From: Photobacterium sp. TLY01
Lineage (GTDB): Bacteria; Pseudomonadota; Gammaproteobacteria; Enterobacterales; Vibrionaceae
Assembly (NCBI RefSeq): GCF_021432065.1
Contig: NZ_CP090365.1
Span: 124,001-188,000 of the forward strand
Length of the DNA stretch: 64,000 bases
Direction: 5' to 3'
Made by a program: the position numbers and the translations under genes. Under the pieces are notes generated by a model. The model was given only the letters and a program-made list of their open reading frames with translations, searched no databases and was not told where the DNA came from. This document shows, piece by piece, positions 4,153-23,365 of the stretch; position 1 is the stretch's first letter, and the number at the start of each line of letters is the position of its first letter.

Positions 4153-4584
4153 GTACAGCAAACAGCAGATCCGCTCTGCAGGGTGAACAAAATTACATCT
4201 ATACTATTTTTGTTCACCTTGAGCCTGATGCACTGAGACAGCCGATGCATCGTTCTCGCCTTCTCCCTGCGCTGAAAAGACGCCAAGCTTAACCTGAATT
4301 CTCCATCCTGCTGATAAATAGCAATTTTTCATTTCCCCTCTGTATCCTTACCGCTCAAGTGTATTGAATTCAGCACATTGACCTGCGTTCATCTGGGTCA
4401 GACGCTGTTACAAATCAGGCAAATTTCTCTGTGATCAACGGCAACGTAGGGTTTGACATTTGTATCAAAAAGCTCAACTATGAGCACTTCATTTGCTCAG
4501 GTGCATTACATTCGTTCATGAGACATGAACCGCAACAGAGCAGAAACGTCATTTCTTACCACATATCAAAAAGGTTTTACTGAG
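4153..4584 (+). other. 432-bp leader region between the SorC gene and tal copy 2
   Basis: This is the longest non-coding gap of the locus and presumably carries the promoter of the second tal-tkt operon. It holds the operator-like repeat at 4184-4216, a TTGACA at 4453-4458 that could be a -35 element without a good -10, and a small repeat TGAGCA/TGCTCA near 4481-4499. No ORF of interest or riboswitch fold was recognised. Confidence 0.5.
4184..4216 (+). promoter_or_regulatory. Candidate SorC-type operator upstream of tal copy 2
   Basis: TGAACAAA (4184-4191) and TTTGTTCA (4209-4216) form a perfect inverted repeat, extended to GGTGAACAAAA/TTTTTGTTCACC. The half-site start-to-start spacing is 25 bp, exactly as in the site before the SorC gene. 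It lies 32 bp after the regulator's stop. It could also be read as a weak hairpin, but it is AT-rich and lacks a T-run, so an operator fits better. Confidence 0.5.
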
Positions 4585-5535
4585 ATGAGCACCAAACTGG
4601 AACAGCTGCGCGCACTTACTACTGTTGTTGCCGACACCGGCGACATCGAAGCGATTAAGAAGTATCAACCGCAAGATGCCACCACCAACCCTTCCCTGAT
4701 CCTGAAAGCTGCTGAAATTGAACAGTATGCGCCGCTCATCGACGATGCCATTGCGTATGCCAAAGCACAAAGCAACGATAAAGCACAACAAATCCAGGAC
4801 GCGGGCGACAAGCTGGCGGTGAACATCGGTAAAGAAATCCTGAATGTGGTACCGGGCCGTATCTCCACTGAAGTGGACGCGCGTCTGTCCTACGACACCC
4901 AAGCCAGCGTGGCCAAAGCCCGCAAGCTGATCAAAATGTACAATGATGCCGGTATCAGCAACGACCGTATCCTGATCAAACTGGCCTCGACCTGGGAAGG
5001 GATCCGCGCGGCTGAAGTGCTGGAAAAAGAAGGCATCAACTGTAACCTGACTCTGCTGTTCTCTTTTGCTCAGGCCCGTGCCTGTGCTGAAGCCGGTGTC
5101 TACCTGATCTCCCCCTTCGTGGGCCGCATCATGGACTGGTACAAAGCCAAAGAAGGCCGTGACTTCGAAGCCTCTGAAGATCCGGGCGTGCTGTCAGTCA
5201 CAGCTATCTACAACTACTACAAAGCCCTGGGCTACAACACTGTGGTCATGGGCGCAAGCTTCCGTAACACAGGTGAAATCCTGGAGCTGGCCGGCTGTGA
5301 CCGCCTGACCATCAGCCCGCAGTTGCTGCAGGAGCTGTCTGAAGCACAAGGCGACGTGGTGCAGAAACTTTCTGCTGACGTAGCGTCTGAAGAGCGTCCG
5401 GCACCGATGACTCACGCTGAGTTCCTGTGGGAGCACAACCAGGATCCTATGGCGATTGAGAAGCTGGCGGAAGGGATCCGTAACTTCGCCATCGACCAGG
5501 GTAAGCTGGAAACCATGATCGAAGCGCGTCTGTAA
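4585..5535 (+). CDS. tal: Transaldolase, copy 2
   Basis: Complete transaldolase of 316 residues (E. coli TalB has 317), cytosolic, pentose phosphate pathway. The start at 4585 ([20 protein letters not shown]) matches the family N-terminus; an in-frame ATG at 4525 would add 20 unrelated residues. An AAAAAGG stretch precedes the start at a somewhat long spacing. The catalytic Lys is in [10 protein letters not shown] and the [10 protein letters not shown] strand carries the conserved early Asp. It lies 80 bp upstream of tkt copy 2 and 432 bp downstream of the SorC-type regulator, whose candidate operator lies in that gap. It is identical to copy 1 over the shared protein sequence. Confidence 0.98.
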
Positions 5536-7602
5536 TCCCGTTTCAATTTGAGAGCAGCACAACGCTGCTCTCACTCGTTTTATGTCCAACCTGTATTGAG
5601 TAAGAAGAATTAATTATGGATCGTAAAGTATTAGCCAATGCTATCCGTGCCCTGAGCATGGACGGTGTACAACAGGCCAACTCCGGCCACCCGGGCGCCC
5701 CGATGGGGATGGCTGACATCGCAGAAGTACTGTGGCGTGATCACCTGAACCACAACCCGCAAAACCCGAACTGGGCTGACCGCGACCGCTTCGTGCTGTC
5801 CAACGGTCACGGCTCCATGCTGATTTACTCCCTGCTGCATCTGTCTGGCTACGACCTGGCGATTGACGATCTGAAAAACTTCCGTCAGCTGCACTCCAAA
5901 ACCCCGGGTCACCCGGAGTACGGCTACGCGCCGGGTATCGAAACCACCACAGGCCCACTGGGTCAGGGCATCACCAATGCGGTGGGTATGGCGATTGCTG
6001 AGAAGTCTCTGGCTGCTCAATTTAACCGTGACGGCCACGACATCGTTGACCACTACACCTATGCATTCCTGGGTGACGGCTGCCTGATGGAAGGGATTTC
6101 TCACGAAGCCTGCTCCCTGGCCGGTACGCTGGGTCTGGGCAAGCTGATCGCCTTCTGGGATGACAACGGCATCTCCATCGACGGTCACGTGGAAGGCTGG
6201 TTCTCTGACGACACGCCAAAGCGTTTTGAAGCCTACGGCTGGCACGTGATCCCTGCGGTTGACGGCCACGATGCGGCCGCTATCAACGCGGCCATCGAAG
6301 CGGCAAAAGCCGATCCACGTCCAACCCTGATTTGCACCAAAACCATCATTGGTTTCGGCTCGCCGAACAAAGCCGGCTCTCACGACTGCCATGGTGCCCC
6401 GCTGGGTCACGATGAAATCGCCGCCGCCCGTGAATTCCTGGGCTGGCAGCACGGTCCGTTCGAAATCCCTGCCGACGTTTACGCGCAGTGGGATGCCAAA
6501 GAAGCGGGCGCAGCCAAAGAAGCCGCGTGGAATGAAAAACTGGCCGCTTATGAAGCCGCGCATCCAGAGCTGGCTGCCGAGTTCAAACGTCGTGTAAACG
6601 GCGAACTGCCGGCACAATGGGAAGCAGAAGCAAGCAAGATCATTGCTGATCTGCAAGCCAACCCGGCCAACATCGCTTCCCGTAAAGCCTCTCAGAACGC
6701 GCTGGAAGCCTTCGGCAAGATTCTGCCTGAATTCATGGGCGGCTCTGCAGACCTGGCACCTTCCAACCTGACTATGTGGTCTGGTTCGAAGTCGCTGACC
6801 GCGGATGATGCATCCGGTAACTACATTCACTACGGTGTGCGTGAGTTCGGCATGACGGCCATCATCAACGGTATCGCCCTGCACGGTGGTTTCGTGCCTT
6901 ACGGCGCCACCTTCCTGATGTTCATGGAATACGCCCGTAACGCTATGCGGATGGCTGCGCTGATGAAAGTGCAGAACATTCAGGTTTACACCCATGACTC
7001 TATCGGTCTGGGTGAAGATGGCCCGACGCACCAGCCGGTTGAGCAAATGGCTTCTCTGCGTCTGACCCCGAACATGAGCACCTGGCGTCCGTGTGACCAG
7101 GTTGAGTCTGCCGTGGCCTGGAAACTGGCGATTGAGCGCAAAGACGCGCCAACCGCGCTGATCTTCTCGCGTCAGAACCTGGCTCAGCAAGAACGCAGCG
7201 AACAGCAGGTAGCTGACATCGCCAAGGGCGGTTACATCCTGAAAGACTGCACCGGCAAGCCTGAGCTGATCCTGATTGCCACCGGTTCTGAAGTGGAGCT
7301 GGCGGTCAACGCTGCAGCTGAGCTGAGCGCCGAAGGCAAGCAGGTTCGTGTGGTGTCTATGCCATCGACCGATGCATTCGACAAGCAAGATGCGGCTTAC
7401 CGCGAGTCTGTACTGCCATCAGATGTGACGGCCCGTATCGCGATTGAAGCGGGCATCGCCGACTTCTGGTACAAGTACGTGGGCTTTGACGGCCGCATCA
7501 TCGGCATGACCAGCTTCGGCGAATCTGCACCGGCTGGCGAGCTGTTCAAGCTGTTTGGCTTCACCACTGAAAATGTGGTCAGCACAGCGAAAGAGCTGCT
7601 GG
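4681..7602 (+). repeat. Direct repeat unit 2 (tal-tkt block)
   Basis: Partner of the repeat at 1-2922. The perfectly identical tract here is 4768-6127, covering most of tal, the spacer and the first quarter of tkt. Differences cluster at both outer ends, the pattern left by a conversion tract inside an older duplication. Confidence 0.95.
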
Positions 7603-7607
7603 CATAA
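5616..7607 (+). CDS. tkt: Transketolase, copy 2
   Basis: Transketolase of 663 residues with the same TPP-binding (GDGCLMEG...DDN) and pyrimidine-domain motifs as copy 1. It differs from copy 1 in protein only by one extra C-terminal Ala. About 31 nucleotide differences from copy 1 lie after the first quarter of the gene and all are silent. It is the second gene of the tal-tkt operon, 80 bp after tal copy 2, and is closed by a terminator 21 bp downstream. Having two intact copies suggests dosage or differential regulation rather than new function. Confidence 0.98.
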
Positions 7608-9051: not shown

Positions 9052-9627
9052 CTATTTTTTCAGCGCCGCCTGGATCAGGTCTATGACCACTTCAGGGGCC
9101 GGTAACGAGGGATGGCCAACCATCCGATTGAGCGACGCATCAAAATTCTCATGCCAGACTGGTTCAACGACGTCATAACCGTCTTCACGCAGTTGCTGAA
9201 CATTACGCTGCACCGCTGGCTTTTTCCACATTACAGCGCCCATCACAGGCAAAAAGTACACTGGGAAATCTGCCGTCAGAATTACAGTGGTGAGCCGGTT
9301 GGTCGCACCACCCTGTGCTGCAGTCGCGAGGGTGTTTGCTGTCGCCGGCATCACAAACAACACATCATGATCGGCAACGATCCGGGACGGTTTATCTGTC
9401 GGCCAGTCCCGGGGCTGCTCACCCTCAATCACCCGGTCACAATACAGTGCCATACTGGATGCCGGTATGAATGTTTCTGCCGTCGGCGTCATCAGAACGG
9501 TCAGCTCACAGTTGATCCCCCCTTTTATTGCCTGTAAATATTTTGGCAGCAGCATGATATCCACAGAACCTGATGCGCCGATCAGTATCTTTGGTTGAAC
9601 CGTTTGTTGCAGAAGAACCTTTTCCAT
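9052..9627 (-). CDS. hlmF: PPC-decarboxylase-like flavoprotein of the dithiolopyrrolone cluster
   Basis: Protein of 191 residues from the HFCD flavoprotein family (phosphopantothenoylcysteine decarboxylase, EpiD). The FMN-binding start GASGSVDI is at 18-25, PATANTLATAA at 94-104 and a PxMxxxMW motif (PVMGAVMW) at 127-134. In holomycin clusters such a protein (HlmF) is thought to carry out oxidative decarboxylation of the C-terminal Cys of the Cys-Cys precursor. By hand alignment the active-site His of EpiD/HAL3 (EpiD His67) falls on Pro80, and the Asn of PxMNxxMW is Gly130, so the chemistry may differ from classical family members. It is the last gene of the operon, 78 bp after the metallophosphoesterase. 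Assignment to HlmF rests on family and context. Confidence 0.75.
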   Translation of the reverse strand: MEKVLLQQTVQPKILIGASGSVDIMLLPKYLQAIKGGINCELTVLMTPTAETFIPASSMALYCDRVIEGEQPRDWPTDKPSRIVADHDVLFVMPATANTLATAAQGGATNRLTTVILTADFPVYFLPVMGAVMWKKPAVQRNVQQLREDGYDVVEPVWHENFDASLNRMVGHPSLPAPEVVIDLIQAALKK

Positions 9628-9705
9628 ATTGAATTTCCTTATCAGTCACTAAATTTTCCCCTGGCACAGCGCCATGAACCAGCCGACACGACCTGAGCCG
9701 GAACG

Positions 9706-10530
9706 CTACATCAAAAGCGTATCGAGCACCGTCAACATGCAGTACGCATCGCGGCCTTGCCTGTCTTTTGGGTAGCCCAAAGACACTTCAACGTGCGGTA
9801 TTCCGTCTAATACACTGTGCCCATGCCTGTGAAGATGTCCGTACACAACCAGACAAACCGGAAAACGGCTGAACCAGGTCTCAACCTGCCGTGTACCACA
9901 CCAGATTGAAAACTCCTGCGGTTGCACCGATTCAGTCAGGGTCTGCAGCATGGGAAAATGGTTAATCAATATCATAGGAAGCTGTGCTGAGACGGCATTC
10001 AGCCGGGCTTCCGTGTACTGAACACGTTCACTACACCAGCTTCGGATATCCGGATAGGGATACGTTTTCAGAAAAAACTCGTCTGAGCACACCGCACCGG
10101 CCCGTCTTGCTCTTTCCAACCCCTGTTGCGCTGTGAAATCAGAAGGGTGTCGAAACGAGTAGTCATACAGTGTAAAAAGCGGGGCAAGCAAAAATGATTG
10201 CCCGTTTTCAGCGGTATACACCGGATATTCATCCTCCGGGGTCAGGACGCCATATTGGTGGCAAATTTCGATAAGCTGTCGATACCGCATCTCACCCGGC
10301 AATGCCATTGGCTCTTTGGGCGTACACCAGAGCTCATGATTACCGGGTACCCAGATGACCCGGTAAAACTGCGCAGCCACTGTTCGGATAACCCACTCGA
10401 AATCGTTCAGATCATCAGCCACATCACCGCCCAGAATCAGCCAATCACTGTGGTATTGCGTACACATTGCCTCAACTGCCCGTCGGTTTTCCGGGTGAGA
10501 GACATGCAAATCACTGACAGCCACCAACAT
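9706..10530 (-). CDS. Calcineurin-like metallophosphoesterase in the antibiotic operon
   Basis: Protein of 274 residues with all metallophosphoesterase metal motifs in order: SDLHV near the N-terminus, GGDVADD, PGNHEL, INHFP and YGHLHRH. Two metal ions and phosphoester hydrolysis are therefore expected, but the substrate is unknown. The ATG at 10530 (MLVAVSDLHV) is chosen because an AGGAG ribosome site precedes it; a longer frame to 10611 would overlap the globin gene and lacks such a site. It starts 11 bp after the globin stop and is co-directional with the holomycin-type genes. It is not among the core hlm genes I can recall, so it may be a resistance, tailoring or salvage function specific to this lineage. 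Confidence 0.85.
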   Translation of the reverse strand: MLVAVSDLHVSHPENRRAVEAMCTQYHSDWLILGGDVADDLNDFEWVIRTVAAQFYRVIWVPGNHELWCTPKEPMALPGEMRYRQLIEICHQYGVLTPEDEYPVYTAENGQSFLLAPLFTLYDYSFRHPSDFTAQQGLERARRAGAVCSDEFFLKTYPYPDIRSWCSERVQYTEARLNAVSAQLPMILINHFPMLQTLTESVQPQEFSIWCGTRQVETWFSRFPVCLVVYGHLHRHGHSVLDGIPHVEVSLGYPKDRQGRDAYCMLTVLDTLLM

Positions 10531-10540
10531 GGTTTGTCTC

Positions 10541-11083
10541 CTAAAGTGTTCCCGGAGGCGCTTCTCCCCAGCCCCATCTGGGCACAGTATCCCGCTTGGA
10601 AGGCTTAGCATCCGGTTGTGAATTGGCCATGGCTCTGCGCGATCCCCACTCTATGTATGCCGTAAACGCGGAACGAAATTCCGGGTCGCTGGGTAATTCA
10701 ATTTCATCGGCACTTTGCATCATCAAAGAGACCCAGCGTTCTCGCTGCTCCGCCTGAATCGAACGTCCTCTGTGCTTACGGATCATATTTTTGAATCCGC
10801 CTCTGTCATTGGTATACAGAGGCTCACCACCGAAGACCTCTTCAAACCACATCGCCACATGGACATGGTGATCTGGCGGCATATGCTGAAAAAGAGGCTG
10901 AAGTAAGTCATCTTTTTCGACTTTGGCGTAAAATACCTGCAGCAAATGGCGGATCGCATCGCGTCCCCCCATCCACTCCAGTAATGTGGGTGTTGATGGA
11001 CTCGTCGCCTGGCCTTTTTCAACTTTCTCGACGTTCTCAGTCATGGTTTCTGTCATCGTTTCTGTCATCGTGTTTTCACTCAT
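10541..11083 (-). CDS. hlmG: Truncated hemoglobin (group II type) of the dithiolopyrrolone cluster
   Basis: About 180 residues. The core from LLEWMGGRDAIRHLLQVFY to the C-terminal WGSRRAMANSQ has the truncated-globin pattern, with the proximal His region MPPDHHVHVAMWFEEVFGG and a trailing RWGWGEAPPG. A globin (HlmG) is a recognised member of holomycin clusters, perhaps handling oxygen or redox during ring formation. The ATG at 11083 is only 2 bp after the stop of the GNAT gene (TAATCATG), which implies coupling. The N-terminus carries three tandem MTET/MTEN units from a 12-bp DNA repeat, absent from normal globins and possibly variable. Confidence 0.85.
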   Translation of the reverse strand: MSENTMTETMTETMTENVEKVEKGQATSPSTPTLLEWMGGRDAIRHLLQVFYAKVEKDDLLQPLFQHMPPDHHVHVAMWFEEVFGGEPLYTNDRGGFKNMIRKHRGRSIQAEQRERWVSLMMQSADEIELPSDPEFRSAFTAYIEWGSRRAMANSQPDAKPSKRDTVPRWGWGEAPPGTL

Positions 11084-11085
11084 GA

Positions 11086-11973
11086 TTAGCCAAGCTCCAA
11101 TGACGCAATGCACCAAACCTTGTGTTCCTGCTCTTTCGGTGGTTCACCGCGATACATGCGAAGTGTCTGGAAGATGGATTCAAATCCATGGGTTTCGGCC
11201 AGACTGATCAAAGTGCGATCTGTCTTTTCAGGGACATCCAAGGTGACTTTCCCCCCCTGTGGCACAGCGGATAATGCCGCGATAAACAGAGGTTCCACCA
11301 GGTCTGGGGAACTGGCGAACAACGGACCAACCCGGTAACCCTCTTGCGACTGACGAACGCCGATAATGCCAGTCACTTCCTGACCACTCCGGCAAATGAA
11401 GCCGTAACGTGTTTCCCCGATAAACCAGTGTTTCAGTAAGGCACTGCGGTCGATACCCGTACAGCTTTGATCGTATGCGATGAGAGCGTCGATATCCGCA
11501 GCCTGTACCAACGCAATATGATCGGGGCAGTGGTAATCCTGTTGTACCTGGCCCACCATGCGCAGATTATATCTGTCCCCGGCAAACCCCCATTTTGCAT
11601 AGTTATCAACCTGGGCCGGCATGCCATCCAGTCCCATGCAACGTTCCCCACCGTGGTAGAACGCACTTTGACATAACTTCAGGCCATAGCCTTGTCCACG
11701 GTACGCCGGGGAAACCAAGTAATGCCCGAGGAAACTAAAGCGGGACGAATAATTCACGACTGACATCGCAGCAACAGGCTCTTTACCCAGATAACCGATA
11801 AAGAAGCCTTGATCATCCACCTCAAAAAAGGCATTCGCATCACCGATGCCCATGTCCCAGCCTTCATCTTTTGCCCACGCAATCACCGCTTGCCACTCCG
11901 CCAGATTCGCGGATTCAACACGCCAGACGCTGTTTGATGTTTCCGTTTCCGTTTTGTTTTTGACGATATCCAT
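11086..11973 (-). CDS. hlmA: GNAT acyltransferase of the dithiolopyrrolone cluster
   Basis: Protein of 295 residues with a GNAT fold. The acyl-CoA pyrophosphate loop is YRGQGYGLKLC within LVSPAYRGQGYG, and a second, degenerate GNAT-like half follows, as in the acetyltransf_18 architecture. In holomycin biosynthesis HlmA N-acylates holothin, the final step. The start at 11973 (MDIVKNK) gives a good spacing to GAGAGG; the ATG at 11976 is too close. It lies 10 bp after the acyl-CoA dehydrogenase and 2 bp before the globin gene. Gene order E-D-C-B-A matches that recalled for the Streptomyces clavuligerus hlm cluster. Confidence 0.82.
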   Translation of the reverse strand: MDIVKNKTETETSNSVWRVESANLAEWQAVIAWAKDEGWDMGIGDANAFFEVDDQGFFIGYLGKEPVAAMSVVNYSSRFSFLGHYLVSPAYRGQGYGLKLCQSAFYHGGERCMGLDGMPAQVDNYAKWGFAGDRYNLRMVGQVQQDYHCPDHIALVQAADIDALIAYDQSCTGIDRSALLKHWFIGETRYGFICRSGQEVTGIIGVRQSQEGYRVGPLFASSPDLVEPLFIAALSAVPQGGKVTLDVPEKTDRTLISLAETHGFESIFQTLRMYRGEPPKEQEHKVWCIASLELG

Positions 11974-11983
11974 CATTTCCTCT

Positions 11984-13135
11984 CTAAAGCCCCATGGATT
12001 TACTGACGACTTCCAGCATGATTTCACTGGTGCCGCCATAAATTTTCTGAACCCGGCTGTTGACCCACAATTTGCCGATCGACGAATCGCTCATATAAGC
12101 ACTGCCACCATGCAGTTGCAGACATTCATCCGCCACTTTGTTCTGTACTTCTGTTGCCCACCATTTCAGCCGCGCCGCATCTTCCAGGCTGAGTGAGCCG
12201 GCATTAAAGCGCTCAATGGCGTCATTGAGATAACTGCGGGTCACTTTGATCTGGGTGTCCAGTTGCGCCAGCAAAAAGCGGTTGTACTGAAACGCCCCGA
12301 TCGGCTGACCAAACGCCTTACGCTGTTTCACGTAAGCCAGCGTCTCTGCCATCATGATTTCAGCGCTCACCACAGCCACGGTACTGATACTTAAGCGTTC
12401 GCGTGTCATCCCTGTCATAAAGTAATAGCTGCCAAGATTTTCACGCCCAAGCAGGTTACTTTTGGGCACAACACACTGGTCAAACGTTAAATTCGCCGTA
12501 TCGCTGGCATGCCATCCCAGTTTTTTCAGCGCTTCGCCCTGAGAAAAGCCAGCCATGCCTTTTTCCACCACTATCAGGCTGATTCCCTGCCCCCGTGGCC
12601 CGGCGTCAGTCTTCACCGCGACGATAAACAGATCCGCATTCACCCCATTGGTGATAAATGCTTTCCGGCCATTGAGCACATAGTTTTCGCCGTCTGCTGT
12701 CGCTTGCGTGCTCATCCCGGCCGAATCTGAGCCACCGCCTGGTTCAGTGATGGCAATAGCGGCTATTCGCCGGCCACTGCACAAGTCCGGTAACCAGCGC
12801 TGTTTCTGCGCTTCGGAAGCAAACTGGTTGAGATAACTGGCAATGACATCGTTGTGGGAAATCACGATTGGCGCTGTCATACCCACGGCCAGCATTTCTT
12901 CCGTGAGCGCCAGCGCAAAGCGGTAATCCGATTTATCTTGTCCGCCCAGCTCCTGGCTGACGCCCATCCCCAGCAAGCCATGCGCTCCCATGGTCTGCCA
13001 GAAATCACGATCCACCAGACCTTGCTCCTCCCATTTTTCAAGATGGGGCTTCGCGTAATGGTCAAAACATTCCCGGCAAGACAGCCGGAACTCCTTTATC
13101 TCATCTGTGGTTGTATTCACTGAAACACACTCCAA
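11984..13135 (-). CDS. hlmB: Acyl-CoA dehydrogenase-like flavoenzyme of the dithiolopyrrolone cluster
   Basis: Protein of 383 residues, full length for acyl-CoA dehydrogenases. Landmarks are ITEPGGGSDSAG (FAD/substrate loop), AFITNG, the R-K-AFGQPIGAFQ helix and the C-terminal KIYGGTSEIMLE, where Glu is the usual catalytic base. In dithiolopyrrolone biosynthesis an enzyme of this family (HlmB) is proposed to oxidise a carrier-bound cysteine side chain to an ene-thiol. The start overlaps the 3' end of the thioesterase gene by 19 bp, indicating tight translational coupling. Confidence 0.85.
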   Translation of the reverse strand: MECVSVNTTTDEIKEFRLSCRECFDHYAKPHLEKWEEQGLVDRDFWQTMGAHGLLGMGVSQELGGQDKSDYRFALALTEEMLAVGMTAPIVISHNDVIASYLNQFASEAQKQRWLPDLCSGRRIAAIAITEPGGGSDSAGMSTQATADGENYVLNGRKAFITNGVNADLFIVAVKTDAGPRGQGISLIVVEKGMAGFSQGEALKKLGWHASDTANLTFDQCVVPKSNLLGRENLGSYYFMTGMTRERLSISTVAVVSAEIMMAETLAYVKQRKAFGQPIGAFQYNRFLLAQLDTQIKVTRSYLNDAIERFNAGSLSLEDAARLKWWATEVQNKVADECLQLHGGSAYMSDSSIGKLWVNSRVQKIYGGTSEIMLEVVSKSMGL

Positions 13136-13893
13136 CTGTCCATTTTGTTTGTCTCCGCAAGCCTGAACGAGGCTTCGCTATCCATTGCCTGCTGAATCAC
13201 AGACCAGTGCCGGTAAACCGCAAAATGATCGCCATTCACCCGGATCATGCTTATCCGATCCACTGTGTGCCGCCGCCATTGCTGAAGCTGTTCCTCAGTG
13301 ACATGCGGATCGTCCGATGCGGCCACCAGCAGCAGGGGCTGCAAAACGCGCAGATCCCTGAGTGAAGGAAACTGGCTGCGCACCAGAAAATCACTGCGTA
13401 ACTGAGCCACATAGCGCCTGGCAAGCGCCGGTTCATTCAGCACCGTATTGGGTGTTCCCTGATCCTCACGCATTTTTTGCAGCAGGGATTCGTCCGACCA
13501 CAAGTGCAAATCATCAATATCTTGCTCACAGGGCGGAACGGATCCCGAAACCATGCTGTACGCAGGTTTGATCCCATATTTTTTATGCATGACGTCTGTG
13601 ACTGCCACACTGAGCACACCGCCAAAGCTGTGACCAAATGTCGCCCAACGCTGAATTCCCTGCAGCTGCTTTTGCCGAAAATCGCTACAGAGGGTATCTG
13701 CCAGTTTCTCAGCCAGCGTATGCAGGCAGGTCACCTCAGGTTCACGGCCCAGCACACCACGTCCGGGCATTTCAACCGGATGTAAAAGTGCCGTCCCCTT
13801 GTCCTGATGAAGCTTGCAGAAAGGTCGATAGACATTGGCACTGGCGCCGGCATGCGGGAAGGCATACACAACCAGATTTTTATTCGCTGACAT
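13117..13893 (-). CDS. hlmC: Thioesterase of the dithiolopyrrolone cluster
   Basis: Alpha/beta hydrolase of 258 residues, type II (external) thioesterase. It has the entry motif YAFPHAGASANVYRPF, nucleophile elbow GHSFGG and C-terminal GDHFAV with the catalytic His. In the holomycin system HlmC would release the dipeptidyl or cyclised product from the NRPS carrier or clear stalled carriers; the NRPS here lacks its own TE domain. It overlaps the GMC oxidoreductase by 14 bp upstream and the dehydrogenase by 19 bp downstream. Confidence 0.87.
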   Translation of the reverse strand: MSANKNLVVYAFPHAGASANVYRPFCKLHQDKGTALLHPVEMPGRGVLGREPEVTCLHTLAEKLADTLCSDFRQKQLQGIQRWATFGHSFGGVLSVAVTDVMHKKYGIKPAYSMVSGSVPPCEQDIDDLHLWSDESLLQKMREDQGTPNTVLNEPALARRYVAQLRSDFLVRSQFPSLRDLRVLQPLLLVAASDDPHVTEEQLQQWRRHTVDRISMIRVNGDHFAVYRHWSVIQQAMDSEASFRLAETNKMDSWSVFQ

Positions 13894-15526
13894 CCAGACC
13901 TCCTGTTCTCAATGCGTGCGAGATACGCTCTGCCAGCATGATGGTGGTTAAATTGGTCGGCATGGAGGGGATCACAGGAAACAGCGAAGCATCGGCAACG
14001 GTCAGGCCGGTGACACCGTACACCCTGCCGTTCTGATCTGCCGCGCAATCCGGGTTGTGTTCAGGCCCCATCCGGACGGTTCCGGATGCATGCCAGCCCG
14101 GGTTGAGCATGTTTTTGACCGCGCTGTACATCACCCGATCACTGTTGATCATGGCCTCAGACCAGAACTGAATCCCATCCAGAAAGCAGGCAACCGCCGG
14201 GTCATGCAGTGCGCGCCACATTTGCCGTACCGCCCCGACCATGCGGTGAACGTCCTGCTCGTTTTCACGTAAGGGAAGCTGTATGGATGGCAGCACTTCG
14301 GCCTCGCGACTGGTGATAAAAACCTGACCCCGCGCAGCAGGCTGCATCAGCATGGCAGAAGCGCCAACGATCATGGGATACTCAAGCCTGTGCCTGAATT
14401 TGGGCACGGTATGACTTTCGACATTATTGAGCAGGCCAATCTGGACATCGGTTTCCTTGCCTGCACCACTGCAAATTCGGGCTGCAATCTGACGCCACGG
14501 CAAGCCGCGACGACAGACACCGGCTTTGGGAAGCGCCCAGATCACCAGCGAGGCATGATCCTGCAGATTGCGGCCAACGGCAGGCCGGTCGACCCGTACA
14601 GGAATATCCAGAGACTGCAAATGCGCCGGATCGCCAATCCCGGAGCGCTGTAACAAAGCCGGGGTGCCGATGGCGCCTGCCGCCAGGACCACTTCACCGG
14701 CTTCAAAGCGATGAAAGCGCCCCTGATAAATGGCTTCAATGCCTGAGACCGTCGTCCCGCTGAATGTGATGGCGGAGACAAGAACGTCAGTCAGTACCGT
14801 TAAGTTCGGCCTGTCCTGAACCGGTGCCAGATACGCCTGATAGACATCCAGACGCCGGGCGTGCTGTTTGACATTGGAAGGTACAGGGCCGACACCGGGT
14901 GCTTCTCCGGCATTCAGATCTTCGGTATATGGAATCCCTTGTTTCTGGCAGGCGGCAGAGAAAGCCTGATCTAACGGATGCAGACTGTCAGCATCAGGAC
15001 GACGCAACACCATAGGCCCCTGATCGCCGTGCAAGTCATCGCCCGGAAAATCCGTATCGGTTTCCAGACGGCGATACCAGGGCAGGACGTGTTGCCACGA
15101 CCACTGCGGACACCCCATCTCAGCCCAACGCGCAAAGTCCCGGGGAAAAGTCCGCAGTGCAACGGCGCCATTCACGGCGGATGAGCCGCCCAGCACTTTC
15201 CCCACTCGGTAATCAAAGGGAGGCGGATGTTTATCCTTCGGTTGATCCGCAAACAACTGACGAACCTGATCACTGGCCGGGCTAAGGCTGCCTCTTAACT
15301 GCGCCTGATACGACCAGTTATAACCTTCCAGTACCAAACGGGATGCATCAGCAAGCGGACTGTCAGCAAGGTGGGCATCTGACTCGGGCCCGGCTTCGAG
15401 CAACAACACCCGTATGTGACTGTCTTCCGACAGGCGGGCCGCGAGCACACAGCCCGCAGACCCGCCACCGACAATGATGAAATCAAACTGGCTCTGAGCC
15501 AGTGGTTCTTCGGCTAGCGCACTCAT
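13880..15526 (-). CDS. hlmD: GMC-family FAD oxidoreductase of the dithiolopyrrolone cluster
   Basis: Protein of 548 residues related to choline dehydrogenase. The N-terminal dinucleotide fold reads FDFIIVGGGSAGCVLAARLSE, followed by VLLLEAGPES, the GMC signatures GKVLGGSSAVNGAVALR and ATLL-like GAIGTPALLQRSGIG, and the C-terminal HASGTVRMG with the catalytic His. Such an enzyme (HlmD) belongs to the oxidative set that makes the bicyclic dithiolopyrrolone. Its ATG overlaps the NRPS stop by 4 bp (ATGA at 15523-15526). The upstream IS insertion may reduce its expression by polarity. Confidence 0.87.
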   Translation of the reverse strand: MSALAEEPLAQSQFDFIIVGGGSAGCVLAARLSEDSHIRVLLLEAGPESDAHLADSPLADASRLVLEGYNWSYQAQLRGSLSPASDQVRQLFADQPKDKHPPPFDYRVGKVLGGSSAVNGAVALRTFPRDFARWAEMGCPQWSWQHVLPWYRRLETDTDFPGDDLHGDQGPMVLRRPDADSLHPLDQAFSAACQKQGIPYTEDLNAGEAPGVGPVPSNVKQHARRLDVYQAYLAPVQDRPNLTVLTDVLVSAITFSGTTVSGIEAIYQGRFHRFEAGEVVLAAGAIGTPALLQRSGIGDPAHLQSLDIPVRVDRPAVGRNLQDHASLVIWALPKAGVCRRGLPWRQIAARICSGAGKETDVQIGLLNNVESHTVPKFRHRLEYPMIVGASAMLMQPAARGQVFITSREAEVLPSIQLPLRENEQDVHRMVGAVRQMWRALHDPAVACFLDGIQFWSEAMINSDRVMYSAVKNMLNPGWHASGTVRMGPEHNPDCAADQNGRVYGVTGLTVADASLFPVIPSMPTNLTTIMLAERISHALRTGGLDVSE

Positions 15527-16303
15527 CCCAGACTGACTCCATCCAGTTGTTTCATCGATTCAATGATCTGGGCAAACTGACGGATGCTGGTATTCATGAA
15601 GAGACCTTCGATCAGATCCTGCTCCTGAACAGCCGTGACCTTGAATTCTTCACGCAGTGTGCTCAGCAGTGCCACAGCAATCAGCGAGTCGCCGCCAACA
15701 TCAAAGAACCCGGCATTCACATCCAGATCATCGTGTTGTAACAGCTCCCGCCAGAGATTGAGTAACCGGCTTTCCGTAGCAGAAACAGGTTTGGTCTCTG
15801 CTGTTTGCGTCTGCTCTTCCGGCCAGGGTGCCGGTAATGCTTTTCGATCGATCTTGCCGTTTGCGGTAAGTGGCATGTAAGGCAAAATAACGAAGTAAGT
15901 GGGCACCATATAAGGTGGCAAAGTGCTTTGTGCCTGCTCCCGGCAGCGCTGTTTCAGGGTTTCATGATCACAATCAGCGTTCTCGTGCAGTACCAGATAG
16001 GCCACCAGTTGCCTTTGTCCCGATTTAGGGTGAACCGGCGCATCTATCACAACATGATTCACGGCTTGCAGACTCAGCAAAGCAAATTCCACTTCACCCA
16101 ACTCCACACGGTAGCCATTGATTTTGACCTGGTTATCTTCCCTGCCCAGAATTTCTATCAAGCCATTTTGGATATACCGCCCTAAATCCCCAGTCTTATA
16201 CAGACGTTCACCGGTTTTCGGGTGAGTGAAAAATCGCTGCGCCGTTTTTTCCGGATCGGCCCAGTAACCTTGAGCAACCCCTTCACCCGCGATATTGTAG
16301 TGG

Positions 16304-17466
<1,163 letters not shown>

Positions 17467-20243
17467 TGAACACCTCTTTCTTTGGTGGCTACTTTACCAC
17501 CTTAAATGGTGTCCGGGTTCATTAAACCACTACATATACAGCTCACCGATCCCCCATTTGGGACAGTCTTCCAGCCACTCGTTCAGCACATGAAAGCGCT
17601 GGTTCGCCAGAGGTTTCCCATAAGGAATGCTGACCCAGTCTTTTTCCACATGCGCAATGGGATAGCAGATAGACCAGATGGAGCCTTCCGTGGCACCGCC
17701 CAGACTGATGACCTGAGCATCCGGCAGTGCGTTGCGGATCGCATCCGGCAAATCCACCGGAATCCAGTCGCCGCTCATTAAAATCAGTCTCAATTTGCTG
17801 CTGGCGAGCAGATCACTGGCCCGATCCACCATGACTTTGACCGGGGCAGGCACGCTATTCCAGATGGTGATGCCGTGATGAATCAGCGTCTCACACCAGA
17901 TTTTGGGATCGTTTTGGGCATCTGCGGCCAGGAACACCAAACGGCCGCCTGCCCCCAACACCCCGAAGTAGTCATAAACCGATAAATCAAACCCTGCCGG
18001 CGCAATAGACAGGACGGCATCGTCGGCTGTCACCCGAAAGCGGCGATTGATGTCATCAAGGGTATTGACGGCATTGCTGTGACTGATCATGACGCCTTTT
18101 GGCTCGCCGGTTGAACCGGAAGTGAAAATCACATAGGCCAGATCATCAGCGCTCTGAATAGGTGACACAGTCTCTAAAGGCGCGTCATCCGGCAGGATAT
18201 CCAGATCTACTCTTAAAAAAGGCTGATACTCTTCAGGATTGGTGTAAATCTCTGTGGTGGTCACGACCGCTTTGGCCTGACAGCGGTGCAACAATTGCAA
18301 TCGTCTTTGCTGCGGTAACGCGGGATCGATCGAGACATAGGCGCCGCCTGACTGCAAAATCCCTAAAATACCAAGAATCAACTCCGGTCCTTGCGGCAAA
18401 GACACCGCAATGATATCTCCGGCTTCAATATGCGCAGATTCCCTTAGTTTCGCCGCCAGATGGGTAGATTTTGCGACCAGTTCACCATAAGTGAGGCGTT
18501 TATCCCCCTGTTCTATGGCAACCGCATCCGGACGATTTTTCGCCGCATCCAGCAAGCTGTCATGCAGCAATCTGGGGCGGATATCGACAAATGTATCATT
18601 CGCCGCACGCCGCTCTGCCTTATCTGACTCAGGTATGCTCACCACAGCACCGGTTTTCTGCCAGATGGTTTGCTCTGAGAGCGCTTCATCTGAAATCACC
18701 TGATTCAGCAAATCCAGATAAGCGTCCATCATGTCTTGTGCCAGATTGGCCGGGAATAAGCCATCCACATAATTAAAATGAATGCCCAGCCCTTGCTGTT
18801 CAAGGGTGATCTGGTTTTCCAGCCAGATCTGTGGGGTTTGATTGCTGGCATACACCTCCCTGCTGCCGGGTCCGCGCCAGTCGGGCACCCACTCTGCTAA
18901 CTCAGGCGTCAATGTATTACTGAACACCACAGGCATTGAGATCGCGCGGTTTTCCTGTTTACGACTGGTCAGCTCGCGCAACACCTGAATACCATTAAAT
19001 GAAGCATGCAACTTTCCCTGATAAAGCAAGGTTTGCACTTCTAACATCCGCTCTGAGAAAGTACTTTCCGCAACACAAGAGACTGGTAACAGCTGAGGCT
19101 GAAGAAAATTTCCTACCGTCTGATCAATTCCCTCTTCGTAAGGCCTGCGCCCCATTTGGGTCAGTGTCAGGGTGAAATCCTGCCGTTTTGACCACTGACG
19201 GATAACCTCGGAATAACACCCCAGCAGCAAAGCTTCCGCTGTCAGGCCATGCTTATCAGCCGCTTGTTTGAATGACACTAAGGTCTGCGTCGGTAACAGT
19301 CTGGAAAGGCGTTGAATATTGGGGTGTTCAATTTGTTGCGGGGAAATATTGAGTGGCAGTTCAGGTGCTGGGGGAAGATGATGAATACGTTCAAGCCAGT
19401 ATTGCTGGTCGTTCTGGCCCTGTGCCTCCCCCTGAAGTATGCGCTCTGCGGCGACATAATCCAGGAAATCCGGTAACTTCACCGGTGTGGTATCTCCCTT
19501 CAGTTGATATTCACGCCAGATATCTTTCAGCACTAACCTGACACTGATCACATCAAGAAACATGAGATCGAAATGGCAGTGCAGCCGCCATGTGTTATCC
19601 GCTAACCGGGTGATTCGCATTTCAAATGATGGCGCTTCGTCTAGCGTCAGCCGTTGCTTTTCCATGCTTTGGCGCAATGTGGTGAGATAGGTGTCCTGAT
19701 CTGAAGCTTCCCAGGCACGAATATCTTTTGATTTCATGCAATACAAACTGCAAGCCGGCACAATTTTTTGTTTGCCGCCAGCAACAGCCACAGCCCTGAG
19801 CATGGCATGCCTGCCAATGGTCTGATTTACCGCATATTTGAAACGCGCTTCATCCAGTGCGTCGACATCCAGTTCCAGATAGTAACTGCTGGATAATCCG
19901 CCGAGTTCCAGACCCGTGTTTCGCCCAATCAAATACGCATACTGAATATCCGTTAATGGCTGTTCATGGGGTTCAGATACAGCCGTCATTTGCTCGGCCA
20001 GTGGCTGATGCAAAGGCAACTGGCCACGATACAGGGCATCAAGCGATGCTTCGTCCTGGCCTGTTTGGTGTAACACCTCTCCTCCGTGTTCGAACGTCAG
20101 GCGGCCGTTTAACTTAACTATCTGTTTTTCAATGATTAGTTTGCCAACTTGATCACAGTTCATAATGGGTCATGTGTCCTTAGTTTGTCTTTCAATCATT
20201 TGCATTTAATAAAATTGTTATTATCTAAAACGCAAAAACCTGC

Positions 20244-20268
20244 CTACTCGTTACTATGCAACAAGTAG
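20244..20268 (-). promoter_or_regulatory. Inverted repeat in the NRPS operon promoter region
   Basis: CTACTCGTT (20244-20252) faces AACAAGTAG (20260-20268), eight of nine positions pairing, about 80 bp upstream of the NRPS start in a 252-bp AT-rich gap. It is a candidate operator for the biosynthetic operon. It is unlike the ArsR-type site of the exporter, so a different regulator would bind it. Confidence 0.35.
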
Positions 20269-20415
20269 ACAGATTACAAACTAGAAGGCGATATATTATT
20301 CGGTCAAGCGATCAATTGATTGTTTTGTATTCACCTTAGGCATATATGATCAAAGACAATATTTACAGCAACTCAAGATGTCGCTCTATAAGCAAATTGT
20401 TGCTCATTGTCACAT

Positions 20416-21861
20416 TTATCCTGATTGCTCACTCGCTGTGCGTGCCGTTGCTTGATATCGATGCCTGGTGATCAACCAGGCCAGCAAAGCTGCCGCCACA
20501 TAAACACCTGCAGCTGTGGCAAACGCCAGGCTATATCCACCGACCACATCAGAGGCAATGCCCGTAATGGCCATCAAAGAAGCCAGCCCGAATGTGGGAC
20601 CTAATTCCATGGAAGTATTCATCACACCCCCTGCCAGACCGGCCTGATGCTGAGGGACATTCATGGTGGACAGCACAGCGGACCCCGAAAACATCAGCGA
20701 CGTCCCCAACGTCAGAATAACAATGCCCGGCAGTAGTCCTGACACATAGGCGACCTCCTGATGAATGCCCGCGAGCAGACTTAACCCGACAGCGCCAACC
20801 ACTAACCCACTGATTGTTACTTTCAACGGCCCCAACCACCCGACAATGCGACTTGCCGCCTGATTCATGATCAGTAAGGTTAAGGTGTAGGGCACAAAGG
20901 CACCTGCTGTTTCAAGCGGCGTCCAGCCTTGTTGGATCTGGAGAAACAAGGACAACAGAAAAGTGACCAGCCCCATACTGGCGGCAGCCAGAAGAATTCC
21001 CACCAGTCCCACGATACGATTCGGCTCTCCGATAAACCCTTTTGGCAGCAACGGATCACTGACACGTCGTTCAACCGCCAGAAACAGGACGATGAGGCAG
21101 AGACCCACCAGTACAGGAACGAGAACAACAGGGGTTGACCAACCCAGTTCGCCGCTGGCGATCAGCCCATAGCTACCAATAGAAATACCCAGTGTAGCCA
21201 GCAAGGCACCGAATGGATCCAGTCCAATCTTATGGCTGACCGCCTGGGCGTGCTCTTCTTTCGGTAAGACCCATTTCACGGCCATTAATCCGATCACGGC
21301 GATCAACACAGGCACAACAAACATCCAACGCCAGGAAACCCAAGTCGTTACCACGCCAGAGGCCAGAAAGCCCACGCCACCACCCAGCACGGACACTCCT
21401 CCCCAGGTTGCCATGGCTCTCATGAAAGCGCTCGGGTCCGGAAACAGTGTACGCAACACAGCCACAGCGGCGGGTGCTGTCAAAGCGGCGCCCACTCCCT
21501 GCAAAAAGCGCATCGCAACCATCATGTTGAAGTGGGTTGAAAAAGCCGCAATCGCAGAAGCCAGTCCAAAAACACACAGGCCTAGTGTGAATAATTTCAA
21601 TCCGCCAAATCTGTCTGTCAACCGGCCGCCGAATAACAACAATCCGCTGAAAGGCAGCCCATATGCCGTGCTGACCAGAAGCAAATCTGAAGCCTGCAGG
21701 CCGAATTCTCGTCCAATATCCGGCAGCGGAATGCCAATCATCACGATGGTGAAAATCAGTGTCGCCTGCACCACAGCGAGCAGGGGGAAAGCAAGTTTAG
21801 ATGCCGGCGACACCTGAGTACCCTGTGTCACCGGTTCATCCTGTTGTTCCTCGAGAGTCAT
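20416..21861 (-). CDS. hlmH: MFS multidrug exporter (DHA2/EmrB-QacA type), likely dithiolopyrrolone export
   Basis: Inner-membrane transporter of 481 residues with many hydrophobic segments and a long form suggesting 14 helices. The MFS motif A is GRLTDRFGGLKLF and the motif-C-like stretch is FLQGVGAALTAPAAVAVLRTLF. The ATG at 21861 (MTLEEQQ) is chosen because an AAGGA site lies 8 bp upstream; the longer frame starts only with TTG. HlmH of the holomycin cluster is an MFS exporter of the same class. The promoter carries an ATTCAAT-N6-ATTGAAT repeat shared with the neighbouring ArsR-rhodanese gene. Confidence 0.85.
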   Translation of the reverse strand: MTLEEQQDEPVTQGTQVSPASKLAFPLLAVVQATLIFTIVMIGIPLPDIGREFGLQASDLLLVSTAYGLPFSGLLLFGGRLTDRFGGLKLFTLGLCVFGLASAIAAFSTHFNMMVAMRFLQGVGAALTAPAAVAVLRTLFPDPSAFMRAMATWGGVSVLGGGVGFLASGVVTTWVSWRWMFVVPVLIAVIGLMAVKWVLPKEEHAQAVSHKIGLDPFGALLATLGISIGSYGLIASGELGWSTPVVLVPVLVGLCLIVLFLAVERRVSDPLLPKGFIGEPNRIVGLVGILLAAASMGLVTFLLSLFLQIQQGWTPLETAGAFVPYTLTLLIMNQAASRIVGWLGPLKVTISGLVVGAVGLSLLAGIHQEVAYVSGLLPGIVILTLGTSLMFSGSAVLSTMNVPQHQAGLAGGVMNTSMELGPTFGLASLMAITGIASDVVGGYSLAFATAAGVYVAAALLAWLITRHRYQATARTASEQSG

Positions 21862-21912: not shown

Positions 21913-21938
21913 AACATTCAATTGAATTATTGAATGTT
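21913..21938 (-). promoter_or_regulatory. Candidate ArsR-rhodanese operator before the exporter gene
   Basis: AACATTCAAT and ATTGAATGTT form perfect 10-bp arms around a 6-bp spacer, 52 bp upstream of the exporter ATG. The inner ATTCAAT-N6-ATTGAAT is repeated with identical geometry upstream of the ArsR-rhodanese gene (22756-22775). BigR/SqrR-type sulfide sensors also use ATTC/GAAT half-sites. Confidence 0.65.
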
Positions 21939-22018
21939 GATTAGCATAGGATACGAATCACCTCTATGTCAACGTTAGACAGATATTAAAAATGCCTGAT
22001 CCGAGCGCCAGAAAGAAA

Positions 22019-22050
22019 GGTTCCTCACAGATAGCAATCTGTGAGGAACC
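22019..22050 (-). terminator. Hairpin terminator after the ArsR-rhodanese gene
   Basis: GGTTCCTCACAGAT pairs perfectly with ATCTGTGAGGAACC around a 4-base loop. On the minus strand the stem is followed by TTTCTTTCT, and it lies 22 bp after the regulator's stop. Confidence 0.8.
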
Positions 22051-22072
22051 CTCGCAAAAACGCTGAACTTAC

Positions 22073-22735
22073 TCAGAGAGCGTCGATTTTATAGCCAGCC
22101 GCTTTCCATTCGGGCACACCATCGTTTAAACGGCGGGCAGATAAGCCTTTTTCTTTCAGCGCATTCACCGCTGTAATCGATAAAGAGCAATAAGGGCCAC
22201 GGCAATAAGCGACAATCTCCTGCTCTTTCGGCAGTTCTGACAATCGCGCTTCCAGCTCGCCGAGGGGAATATTGATCGCACCGGGCAAATGCCCTTGCTC
22301 GAATTCTTCTTCCGGGCGTACATCCAGTAAGGTCACACTGTTTTCCTGCATCCGGACCAGTAGTTCCTCCCGCGAAATGGCTTCCACATCCTGCTGATGA
22401 TGCAAAGTGCCTTTTACCAGCTTTCGGATCTCAGAATGGTTGAACTCGGCAAACTGACGCAATGCCATCAAGAGCTCAACAACAGGTGCGTCTGCAAGAC
22501 GATAAAACACATGCTTGCCTTCGCGGCGGGTCTGGACATAGCCATTTCGCTTGAGCTGCTGCAAGTGTTGGGACGTATTGGCCACTGTCAGAACCGCCAG
22601 TTCTGCCAGCTTTTCAACAGACTTTTCCCCTTGGGCGATATGCTCCAGCAGTATCAAGCGGTGGGCGTTTCCTAAAGGTCGGGCAAGATCAGCCAACTCC
22701 GAATAAATATGATACTGATTGTTTATTGTTGACAT
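22073..22735 (-). CDS. ArsR-family repressor fused to a rhodanese domain
   Basis: Protein of 220 residues. The N-terminal winged HTH (about 15-90) contains LAVLTVANTSQHLQQLKRNGY and the wing RREGKHVFYRL. The C-terminal rhodanese domain (about 125-215) has LLDVRPEEEFEQGHLPGAINIPLGEL and an active loop YCRGPYCS with two cysteines. Such fusions are thought to sense sulfur or redox state, the rhodanese Cys reacting with persulfides or disulfides. It lies next to the exporter of a disulfide antibiotic cluster and shares an operator motif with it, so it probably derepresses the exporter on disulfide or persulfide stress (inference). Confidence 0.9.
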   Translation of the reverse strand: MSTINNQYHIYSELADLARPLGNAHRLILLEHIAQGEKSVEKLAELAVLTVANTSQHLQQLKRNGYVQTRREGKHVFYRLADAPVVELLMALRQFAEFNHSEIRKLVKGTLHHQQDVEAISREELLVRMQENSVTLLDVRPEEEFEQGHLPGAINIPLGELEARLSELPKEQEIVAYCRGPYCSLSITAVNALKEKGLSARRLNDGVPEWKAAGYKIDAL

Positions 22736-22755
22736 AGAAGATTAACTGCCCCATC

Positions 22756-22775
22756 ATTCAATCGATTTATTGAAT
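22756..22775. promoter_or_regulatory. Candidate ArsR-rhodanese operator, divergent promoter
   Basis: ATTCAAT (22756-22762) and ATTGAAT (22769-22775) with a 6-bp spacer, 21 bp upstream of the ArsR-rhodanese ATG and 102 bp upstream of the DUF2938 gene on the other strand. It could control both directions. It matches the exporter site at 21916-21935 in every half-site base. Confidence 0.65.
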
Positions 22776-22876
22776 TATATAGCATTATCAGTGGATTGAT
22801 ACCGCAGCCGTCTCATTTGCTGACATTGTTATAGTTAACCGCATGATTGTCCGCGCAAAAAAAGGAGAGAACCAAG

Positions 22877-23365
22877 ATGGAACCTGATTTCATACTACGC
22901 GCCATTGCTCTGGGTGTCGGTGCCACCCTGGTCATGGATCTGTGGGCACTGTTCCTGAAAGTCTGTTTCAAGATCCCTTCTCTGAACTATGCCATGGTTG
23001 GTCGTTGGATCGGTCACTTTCCTAAAGGGCAATTCACCCATGCCAATATCGGTCAAGCTCAGCCCGTTGCCGGCGAAACTTTGCTGGGCTGGACCGCTCA
23101 CTATGCGATAGGTATTTGCTTTGCTGCCGTACTGCTGTGGGGCTGGGGATTAGAATGGGCGGCCTCTCCGACCTTACTGCCCGCGTTAATTGTGGGTGTG
23201 CTGACTGTGGTTGCACCGTTTTTCCTGATGCAACCAGGCATGGGAGCAGGCGTCGCAGCATCAAAAACCCCTCAGCCCAATACCGCCCGATTACGCAGCC
23301 TGCTGGCTCATACCTCATTCGGTGTGGGGTTATATCTGACGGGAATGATATTGTCAGTTTTTTGA
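22877..23365 (+). CDS. DUF2938 family membrane protein
   Basis: Membrane protein of 162 residues with about four hydrophobic segments (ALGVGATLVMDLWALF, HYAIGICFAAVLLWGWG, LPALIVGVLTVVAPFFLM, FGVGLYLTGMILSVF) and the conserved NYAMVGRWIGHFPKGQF loop. The family function is not known. The ATG at 22877 has a GGAGAG site 9 bp upstream and is preferred to the ATG at 22847. It is divergent from the ArsR-rhodanese gene and may share its operator, so a role in sulfur or thiol stress is possible but unproven. Confidence 0.85.
   Translation: MEPDFILRAIALGVGATLVMDLWALFLKVCFKIPSLNYAMVGRWIGHFPKGQFTHANIGQAQPVAGETLLGWTAHYAIGICFAAVLLWGWGLEWAASPTLLPALIVGVLTVVAPFFLMQPGMGAGVAASKTPQPNTARLRSLLAHTSFGVGLYLTGMILSVF

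Follow-up and report, generated by a model that had tools for sequence, protein, structure and literature searches.

The window, that is, the whole stretch of 64,000 nucleotides of Photobacterium sp. TLY01 DNA that was analysed, carries a dithiolopyrrolone cluster at 9052-20163, in which an hlmA-hlmE block with a Cy-A-T synthetase is accompanied by hlmF and hlmG. These hlm genes have orthologues in P. galatheae and others. The genes are arranged in the order hlmF (9052-9627), metallophosphoesterase, globin, hlmA, hlmB, hlmC, hlmD, hlmE, MFS transporter and ArsR-rhodanese, all on the minus strand; a plus-strand DUF2938 gene comes next and is divergent from ArsR-rhodanese. The features beyond hlmE are the following.

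20237 to 20275, minus strand: terminator-like hairpin from a scan, 18 pairs and then T-rich, between the MFS gene and hlmE
20416 to 21861, minus strand: MFS transporter of the DHA2-like drug-efflux type, 481 aa, probably HlmH (MFS_1, 6.6e-44; ATG at 21861)
21916 to 21935, no strand: operator 1, ATTCAATtgaattATTGAAT / ATTCAATTGAATTATTGAAT, a perfect copy upstream of the MFS gene
21943 to 21972, minus strand: MFS promoter TTGACA-18-TATGCT, from a consensus scan
22073 to 22735, minus strand: ArsR-rhodanese fusion, predicted repressor, 220 aa, probably HlmX (Pfam HTH_5 at residues 26-68 and Rhodanese at 122-213)
22187 to 22204, minus strand: rhodanese-loop codons C178-R-G-P-Y-C183, the only cysteines of the protein and the proposed dithiol sensor
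22729 to 22757, plus strand: DUF2938 promoter TTGACA-17-CATCAT, from a consensus scan; its -10 shares 2 bp with operator 2
22756 to 22775, no strand: operator 2, ATTCAATcgatttATTGAAT / ATTCAATCGATTTATTGAAT, a perfect 7-6-7 palindrome between the ArsR-rhodanese and DUF2938 genes
22774 to 22779, minus strand: ArsR-rhodanese -10 hexamer TATAAT, read from the sequence; 2 bp overlap with operator 2
22877 to 23365, plus strand: DUF2938 membrane protein, 162 aa (PF11158, 1.7e-62)

Judging from gene order, the ArsR-rhodanese and MFS genes are very probably those listed as "transcriptional regulator, HlmX" and "MFS transporter, HlmH" in Photobacterium hlm clusters (PMC9456166); a regulator and an MFS gene lie beside hlmE in P. 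galatheae, P. halotolerans, P. arenosum and P. salinisoli. The sequence-only reading knew of no description of this regulator type in hlm clusters. That statement was too broad, as both genes had very probably been listed already, but it holds for their function: for HlmX and HlmH, the accessible part of that paper says nothing of the domains, of an operator or regulon, or of what might be sensed. No description of the operator, regulon or sensing mechanism of HlmX was found in the literature searched. The best NCBIfam neighbours of the MFS protein were the LmrA and EmrB-type efflux families, with scores below the cut-offs of those families.

A pattern scan identified exact copies of ATTCAAT-N6-ATTGAAT at both operators, 820 bp apart; that is, the same half-sites and spacing precede the MFS and ArsR-rhodanese genes, as had been proposed. 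Operator 2 lies 20 bp from the ArsR-rhodanese ATG. The proposal omitted the divergent DUF2938 gene on the other side of this site, which is predicted to be co-regulated with ArsR-rhodanese. The genome also holds 44 look-alikes with two mismatches, counted irrespective of gene position, as would be expected if the two sites were a product of chance or recent duplication in AT-rich spacers without a regulatory role. We regard this explanation as extremely improbable. The entire genome (4,715,124 bp, 2 contigs) contained these two perfect copies only, with no third copy and no site with one mismatch. In addition, their places are conserved at 70–98% gene identity, and the operator also occurs in other genera and before an unlinked MFS gene. 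The reversed pattern, used as a control, gave no perfect copy in 18 other genomes scanned. The observation therefore stands, because the motif is not frequent in AT-rich spacers; a chance origin of the palindrome was rejected on genome rarity, the reversed control and conservation before relatives. One relative (G005) carried five extra identical copies of the perfect site, which resembled a repeated element, so an exact match does not by itself establish an operator.

Operator 1 begins 7 bp past the -10 hexamer of the MFS promoter, on the expected start region, and the TTGACA of this promoter is conserved in all Photobacterium relatives. A good -35 element was not found for the ArsR-rhodanese promoter. 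The operator position at all three promoters is repressor-like as judged from the predicted promoter elements, and a repressor sign of ArsR-rhodanese was assumed from this position. The terminator-like hairpin lies between the MFS gene and hlmE; therefore, hlmE and the other biosynthetic genes are probably transcribed separately from the MFS gene. Given this hairpin, we considered it less likely that the biosynthetic operon is controlled by transcription reading through from the MFS gene.

We then compared 80 regulator relatives taken from named genomes, of which 68 non-redundant upstream regions were used for the operator count. The palindrome was located approximately 40 bp upstream of the ArsR-rhodanese start codon in alpha-, beta- and gammaproteobacteria, with ATTCAA-N8-TTGAAT as the conserved core. 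It was perfect in 19/68 regions, had at most one mismatch in 43/68 and at most two mismatches in 50/68, compared with 0.007%, 0.06% and 0.47%, respectively, in first-order Markov resamples of the same regions. On this comparison, the operator almost certainly belongs to the ArsR-rhodanese subfamily, to which its binding is predicted. Such fusions are widespread under the annotation "metalloregulator ArsR/SmtB family" and have the same architecture and Cys loop, with the same operator in most relatives tested; the literature searched yielded no experimental work on them. DUF2938 was the divergent neighbour of ArsR-rhodanese in 46 of the loci examined in relatives, and hlm genes were mostly absent there. 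As regulator, operator and DUF2938 are linked across Proteobacteria, mostly without hlm, they form an old module, and an hlm-specific origin of the operator was rejected because the operator is widespread without hlm. For the same reason, the module is better described as portable protection that was added to clusters than as an hlm-specific invention. Holomycin cannot be the general inducer of a module that is present in many hlm-less bacteria. The conjugative Enterobacter cancerogenus plasmid pCFSAN086183 (L153:6634-8630) carries a mobile form in which the MFS belongs to a different family; there, the MFS gene is divergent from ArsR-rhodanese, the operator is perfect and a Tn3 transposase adjoins the module.

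The proposal had suggested examining the motif in other Photobacterium hlm clusters. Among 53 Photobacterium genomes, six were hlm-positive (hlmD at E < 1e-60), and all six carried MFS, ArsR-rhodanese and DUF2938 genes and kept both sites. The regulator site was perfect in 6/6, and the MFS site was perfect in four and had one mismatch in two (P. halotolerans and P. arenosum). P. salinisoli, G103, GJ3 and G109 each contained exactly two perfect sites per genome, in the same two places. The regulators at hlm clusters were 85–98% identical to that of the window in other Photobacterium, 61–62% in Photorhabdus and 52–54% in Xenorhabdus. In Photorhabdus australis, the module adjoins the cluster with the MFS gene inverted and a perfect site before it, and in Xenorhabdus griffiniae, X. 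bovienii, X. hominickii and G475, DUF2938 and ArsR-rhodanese lie beside dithiolopyrrolone clusters. A thioredoxin gene (WCGPC) in the cluster is preceded by the operator in X. griffiniae (exact) and G475 (one mismatch; the two sites are L096:8460-8479 and L139:15547-15566), which suggests that redox defence may belong to the same regulon. X. griffiniae and G475 also have operator sites before a different MFS gene elsewhere. Operator-like matches within the Xenorhabdus hlmE coding sequence were set aside as a probable coding coincidence. Overall, 11/12 HlmH-like MFS genes carried the operator with at most one mismatch. The exception was Photorhabdus asymbiotica, in which the hlm cluster is decayed and the MFS operator has lost a half-site with the -35 unchanged (L045:12140-12330).

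The module is not confined to strains with hlm genes. Photobacterium sp. GJ3 (G068, L146) lacks hlm genes, and its tal-tkt-LysR is followed directly by MFS, ArsR-rhodanese and DUF2938, each of the two sites being perfect. This is the same chromosomal place as in the window (4582-29505), where hlmF-hlmE intervene. G109 likewise has the module and both sites, with the hlm genes absent. In the regulator tree, GJ3 and G109 fell into a group with the window that left out P. galatheae. This fits a loss of hlm with retention of the module in both strains, although one gene tree cannot prove it. A single clade of all hlm-linked regulators was not rejected (p-AU 0.39), and the regulator tree did not decide between single and repeated recruitment to hlm clusters. 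The arrangement in GJ3, together with the lack of hlm in most family members, could also mean that the sites are bound while the link to holomycin is one of neighbourhood only, with the MFS serving another toxic compound and hlm having landed beside an existing module. We consider this doubtful, as ArsR-rhodanese and DUF2938 stand beside hlm clusters in three genera with differing gene orders, and in X. hominickii, the sole perfect site of the genome precedes an HlmH-like MFS gene, which thus retains its operator approximately 0.46 Mb from the ArsR-rhodanese/hlm locus.

Not every producer needs the module. The holothin genes of pTML1 (thiomarinol) have a DUF2938 gene nearby (L138:1929-2447) with no annotated ArsR-rhodanese gene or operator near them, and the Streptomyces dithiolopyrrolone cluster examined contained neither DUF2938 nor ArsR-rhodanese. 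DUF2938 itself may have a dithiolopyrrolone-related function.

In the strain studied here, an intact synthetase gene was not found upon comparison with related genomes. An insertion sequence of 1239 bp occupies 16296-17534 and interrupts hlmE, and the target duplication is 3 bp long (ATA); the ends of the element are TGTAGTGG...CCACTACA, and its two transposase ORFs show an IS3-like layout. The hlmE frame is intact in P. salinisoli, P. halotolerans, P. arenosum and P. galatheae (1131–1145 aa). Because the insertion sequence breaks hlmE, the strain is probably a non-producer of holomycin, with its protection module retained. These results bear on the earlier suggestion of a direct self-protection circuit. 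The shared operator does overlap the promoter region of the exporter, and every hlm-positive Photobacterium found retains it, as do other dithiolopyrrolone producers. However, the circuit cannot be regarded as a design of the hlm cluster itself, as the module is widespread, mostly without hlm, and was recruited; moreover, the regulon adds DUF2938, and hlmE is broken.

The ArsR-rhodanese protein was assessed for both of its domains. Its helix-turn-helix matched PF01022 above the cut-off and NF033788 at 65.7 bits (cut-off, 55), with a fold match to ArsR structures. The rhodanese fold with its catalytic loop cysteine was recognized by PF00581 (69.9 bits) and by matches to rhodanese structures, and Cys178 was invariant. 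The predicted structure (mean pLDDT 87.6) consisted of an ArsR fold, a long helix and a rhodanese fold, and it matched solved ArsR and rhodanese structures; its pTM of 0.49 leaves the relative placement of the two domains uncertain. The sequence and fold matches of the ArsR part were BigR (3pqj), SqrR (6o8k) and HlyU (4k2e/4ooi), and a solved structure of an ArsR-rhodanese fusion was not found in the structure search. The two rhodanese-loop cysteines noticed earlier are C178 and C183 of CRGPYC. Both were present in 89/89 relatives and were invariant in a 40-row alignment at 50–98% identity. The Photobacterium hlm-linked proteins, as in the window, have no cysteine besides this pair.

Characterised ArsR persulfide sensors (BigR/SqrR/HlyU) sense through a Cys pair within the ArsR domain, in helices alpha2 and alpha5 (PMC10509353). 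The window protein shares the ArsR winged helix with BigR, SqrR, YgaV and HlyU; in contrast, its ArsR domain is Cys-free, and a C-x4-C rhodanese is fused at the C-terminus. No cysteine was found in residues 1–110 of the window protein and most relatives, that is, the alpha2/alpha5 pair is absent, and the curated BigR equivalog scored 49.8 bits against a cut-off of 155. Membership of BigR/SqrR was rejected on the cysteine test. Therefore, the sensor is likely the rhodanese-loop dithiol rather than an ArsR-domain pair, which indirectly supports placing the sensing part of the suggested repressor in this loop. Rhodanese domains act on sulfane sulfur, and the role of this domain may be purely sensory.

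The match to the ArsR/SmtB model NF033788 would also suit an ordinary metal or arsenic sensor that answers zinc loss caused by reduced holomycin, with C-x4-C as the ligand. Dithiolopyrrolones disturb metal balance, and zinc starvation has been reported to activate holomycin production in P. galatheae (PMC11317636). Nevertheless, we judge this reading to be improbable, since the ArsR domain lacks cysteine in the window protein and most relatives, the cysteines occupy the rhodanese active-site loop position, and the neighbours are sulfur and transport genes, not metal pumps or arsenic genes.

Neighbouring genes pointed to sulfur species as the signal. In one relative (L061), ArsR-rhodanese faces an ETHE1-like metallo-beta-lactamase gene, and in sulfur-oxidiser lineages (L087, L089, L113 and approximately 20 more loci), the gene it faces codes for a fatty-acid hydroxylase, and a VTT-rhodanese gene comes next. 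BigR/SqrR-type relatives are also reported near rhodanese and sulfur-transport genes. One could thus envisage a general persulfide/sulfane-sulfur stress regulon, in which the rhodanese would take sulfane sulfur from cellular persulfides, sulfur-rich hlm biosynthesis would raise these persulfides, and the MFS would export a sulfur compound that is not necessarily holomycin. Photobacterium strains without hlm keep the module, and the known activity of rhodanese domains would suit such a role. In contrast, the operator-bearing HlmH-like MFS was restricted to dithiolopyrrolone-producing genera and two hlm-less Photobacterium, and it was found in 0 of 394 other genomes of the Enterobacterales order (395 sampled; E < 1e-90). 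A general regulon of this kind is possible, though we think it rather unlikely.

We consider it reasonably probable that ArsR-rhodanese represses the exporter, DUF2938 and itself, that modification of the loop cysteines releases this repression, and that an older thiol/sulfur module was recruited beside dithiolopyrrolone clusters. At rest, a dimeric winged-helix ArsR-rhodanese would sit on the ATTCAA-N8-TTGAAT operators over the -10/start regions and keep three genes shut: the one that encodes it, the divergent DUF2938 and the MFS exporter. C178 and C183 would then be modified by a persulfide (sulfane-sulfur donor), by the cyclic disulfide or dithiol of a dithiolopyrrolone, or by the resulting thiol imbalance. 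Upon release of the repressor, the exporter, DUF2938 and the repressor itself would be made, and in Xenorhabdus, thioredoxin and further MFS genes as well. The older thiol/sulfur-responsive module would thereby have become a protection regulon next to dithiolopyrrolone clusters. Operator identity and rarity, promoter overlap, conservation, co-occurrence with the HlmH-like MFS, the Cys pair and separability from hlm were computed; we infer binding, repression, cysteine chemistry, the inducer and holomycin transport, with the signal and the direction of the response drawn by analogy from family knowledge of ArsR repressors and rhodaneses and from gene neighbourhoods.

More speculatively, the rhodanese could act as a one-component sensor whose C-x4-C reacts directly with a holomycin-type disulfide or dithiol, or with mixed disulfides, freeing a portable regulon of exporter, DUF2938 and, in Xenorhabdus, thioredoxin that was recruited in several genera and kept as stand-alone immunity. 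We put this forward tentatively. Direct disulfide reading would be new chemistry, because the known ArsR persulfide sensors are reported not to react with disulfides (PMC10509353).

The dithiol oxidases HlmI, GliT and DnoP similarly protect against reduced dithiolopyrrolones or related toxins but do so by enzymatic re-oxidation, and DnoP is induced by zinc starvation, not by ArsR-rhodanese (PMC11317636). For a large ArsR subfamily that has apparently gone unstudied, the present analysis supplies an operator and a regulon that can be tested; sensing in this subfamily seems to have shifted out of the DNA-binding domain and into the fused rhodanese. The analysis further proposes a way in which organisms that make disulfide antibiotics could time their export and redox defence, implicates DUF2938, whose function is not known, in this defence, and yields a search motif for resistance modules without an antibiotic cluster.

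Two side observations involve Xenorhabdus. A transaldolase gene lies close to the hlm clusters in Photobacterium (window 4525-7607) and in Xenorhabdus (L096), possibly as a shared insertion spot or by coincidence. In addition, Xenorhabdus contains a second ArsR-rhodanese paralogue (L076, L078, L079, L080) with the loop CGGRYC and diverged, partly ATTCC-type upstream sequences; this paralogue probably has a different operator.
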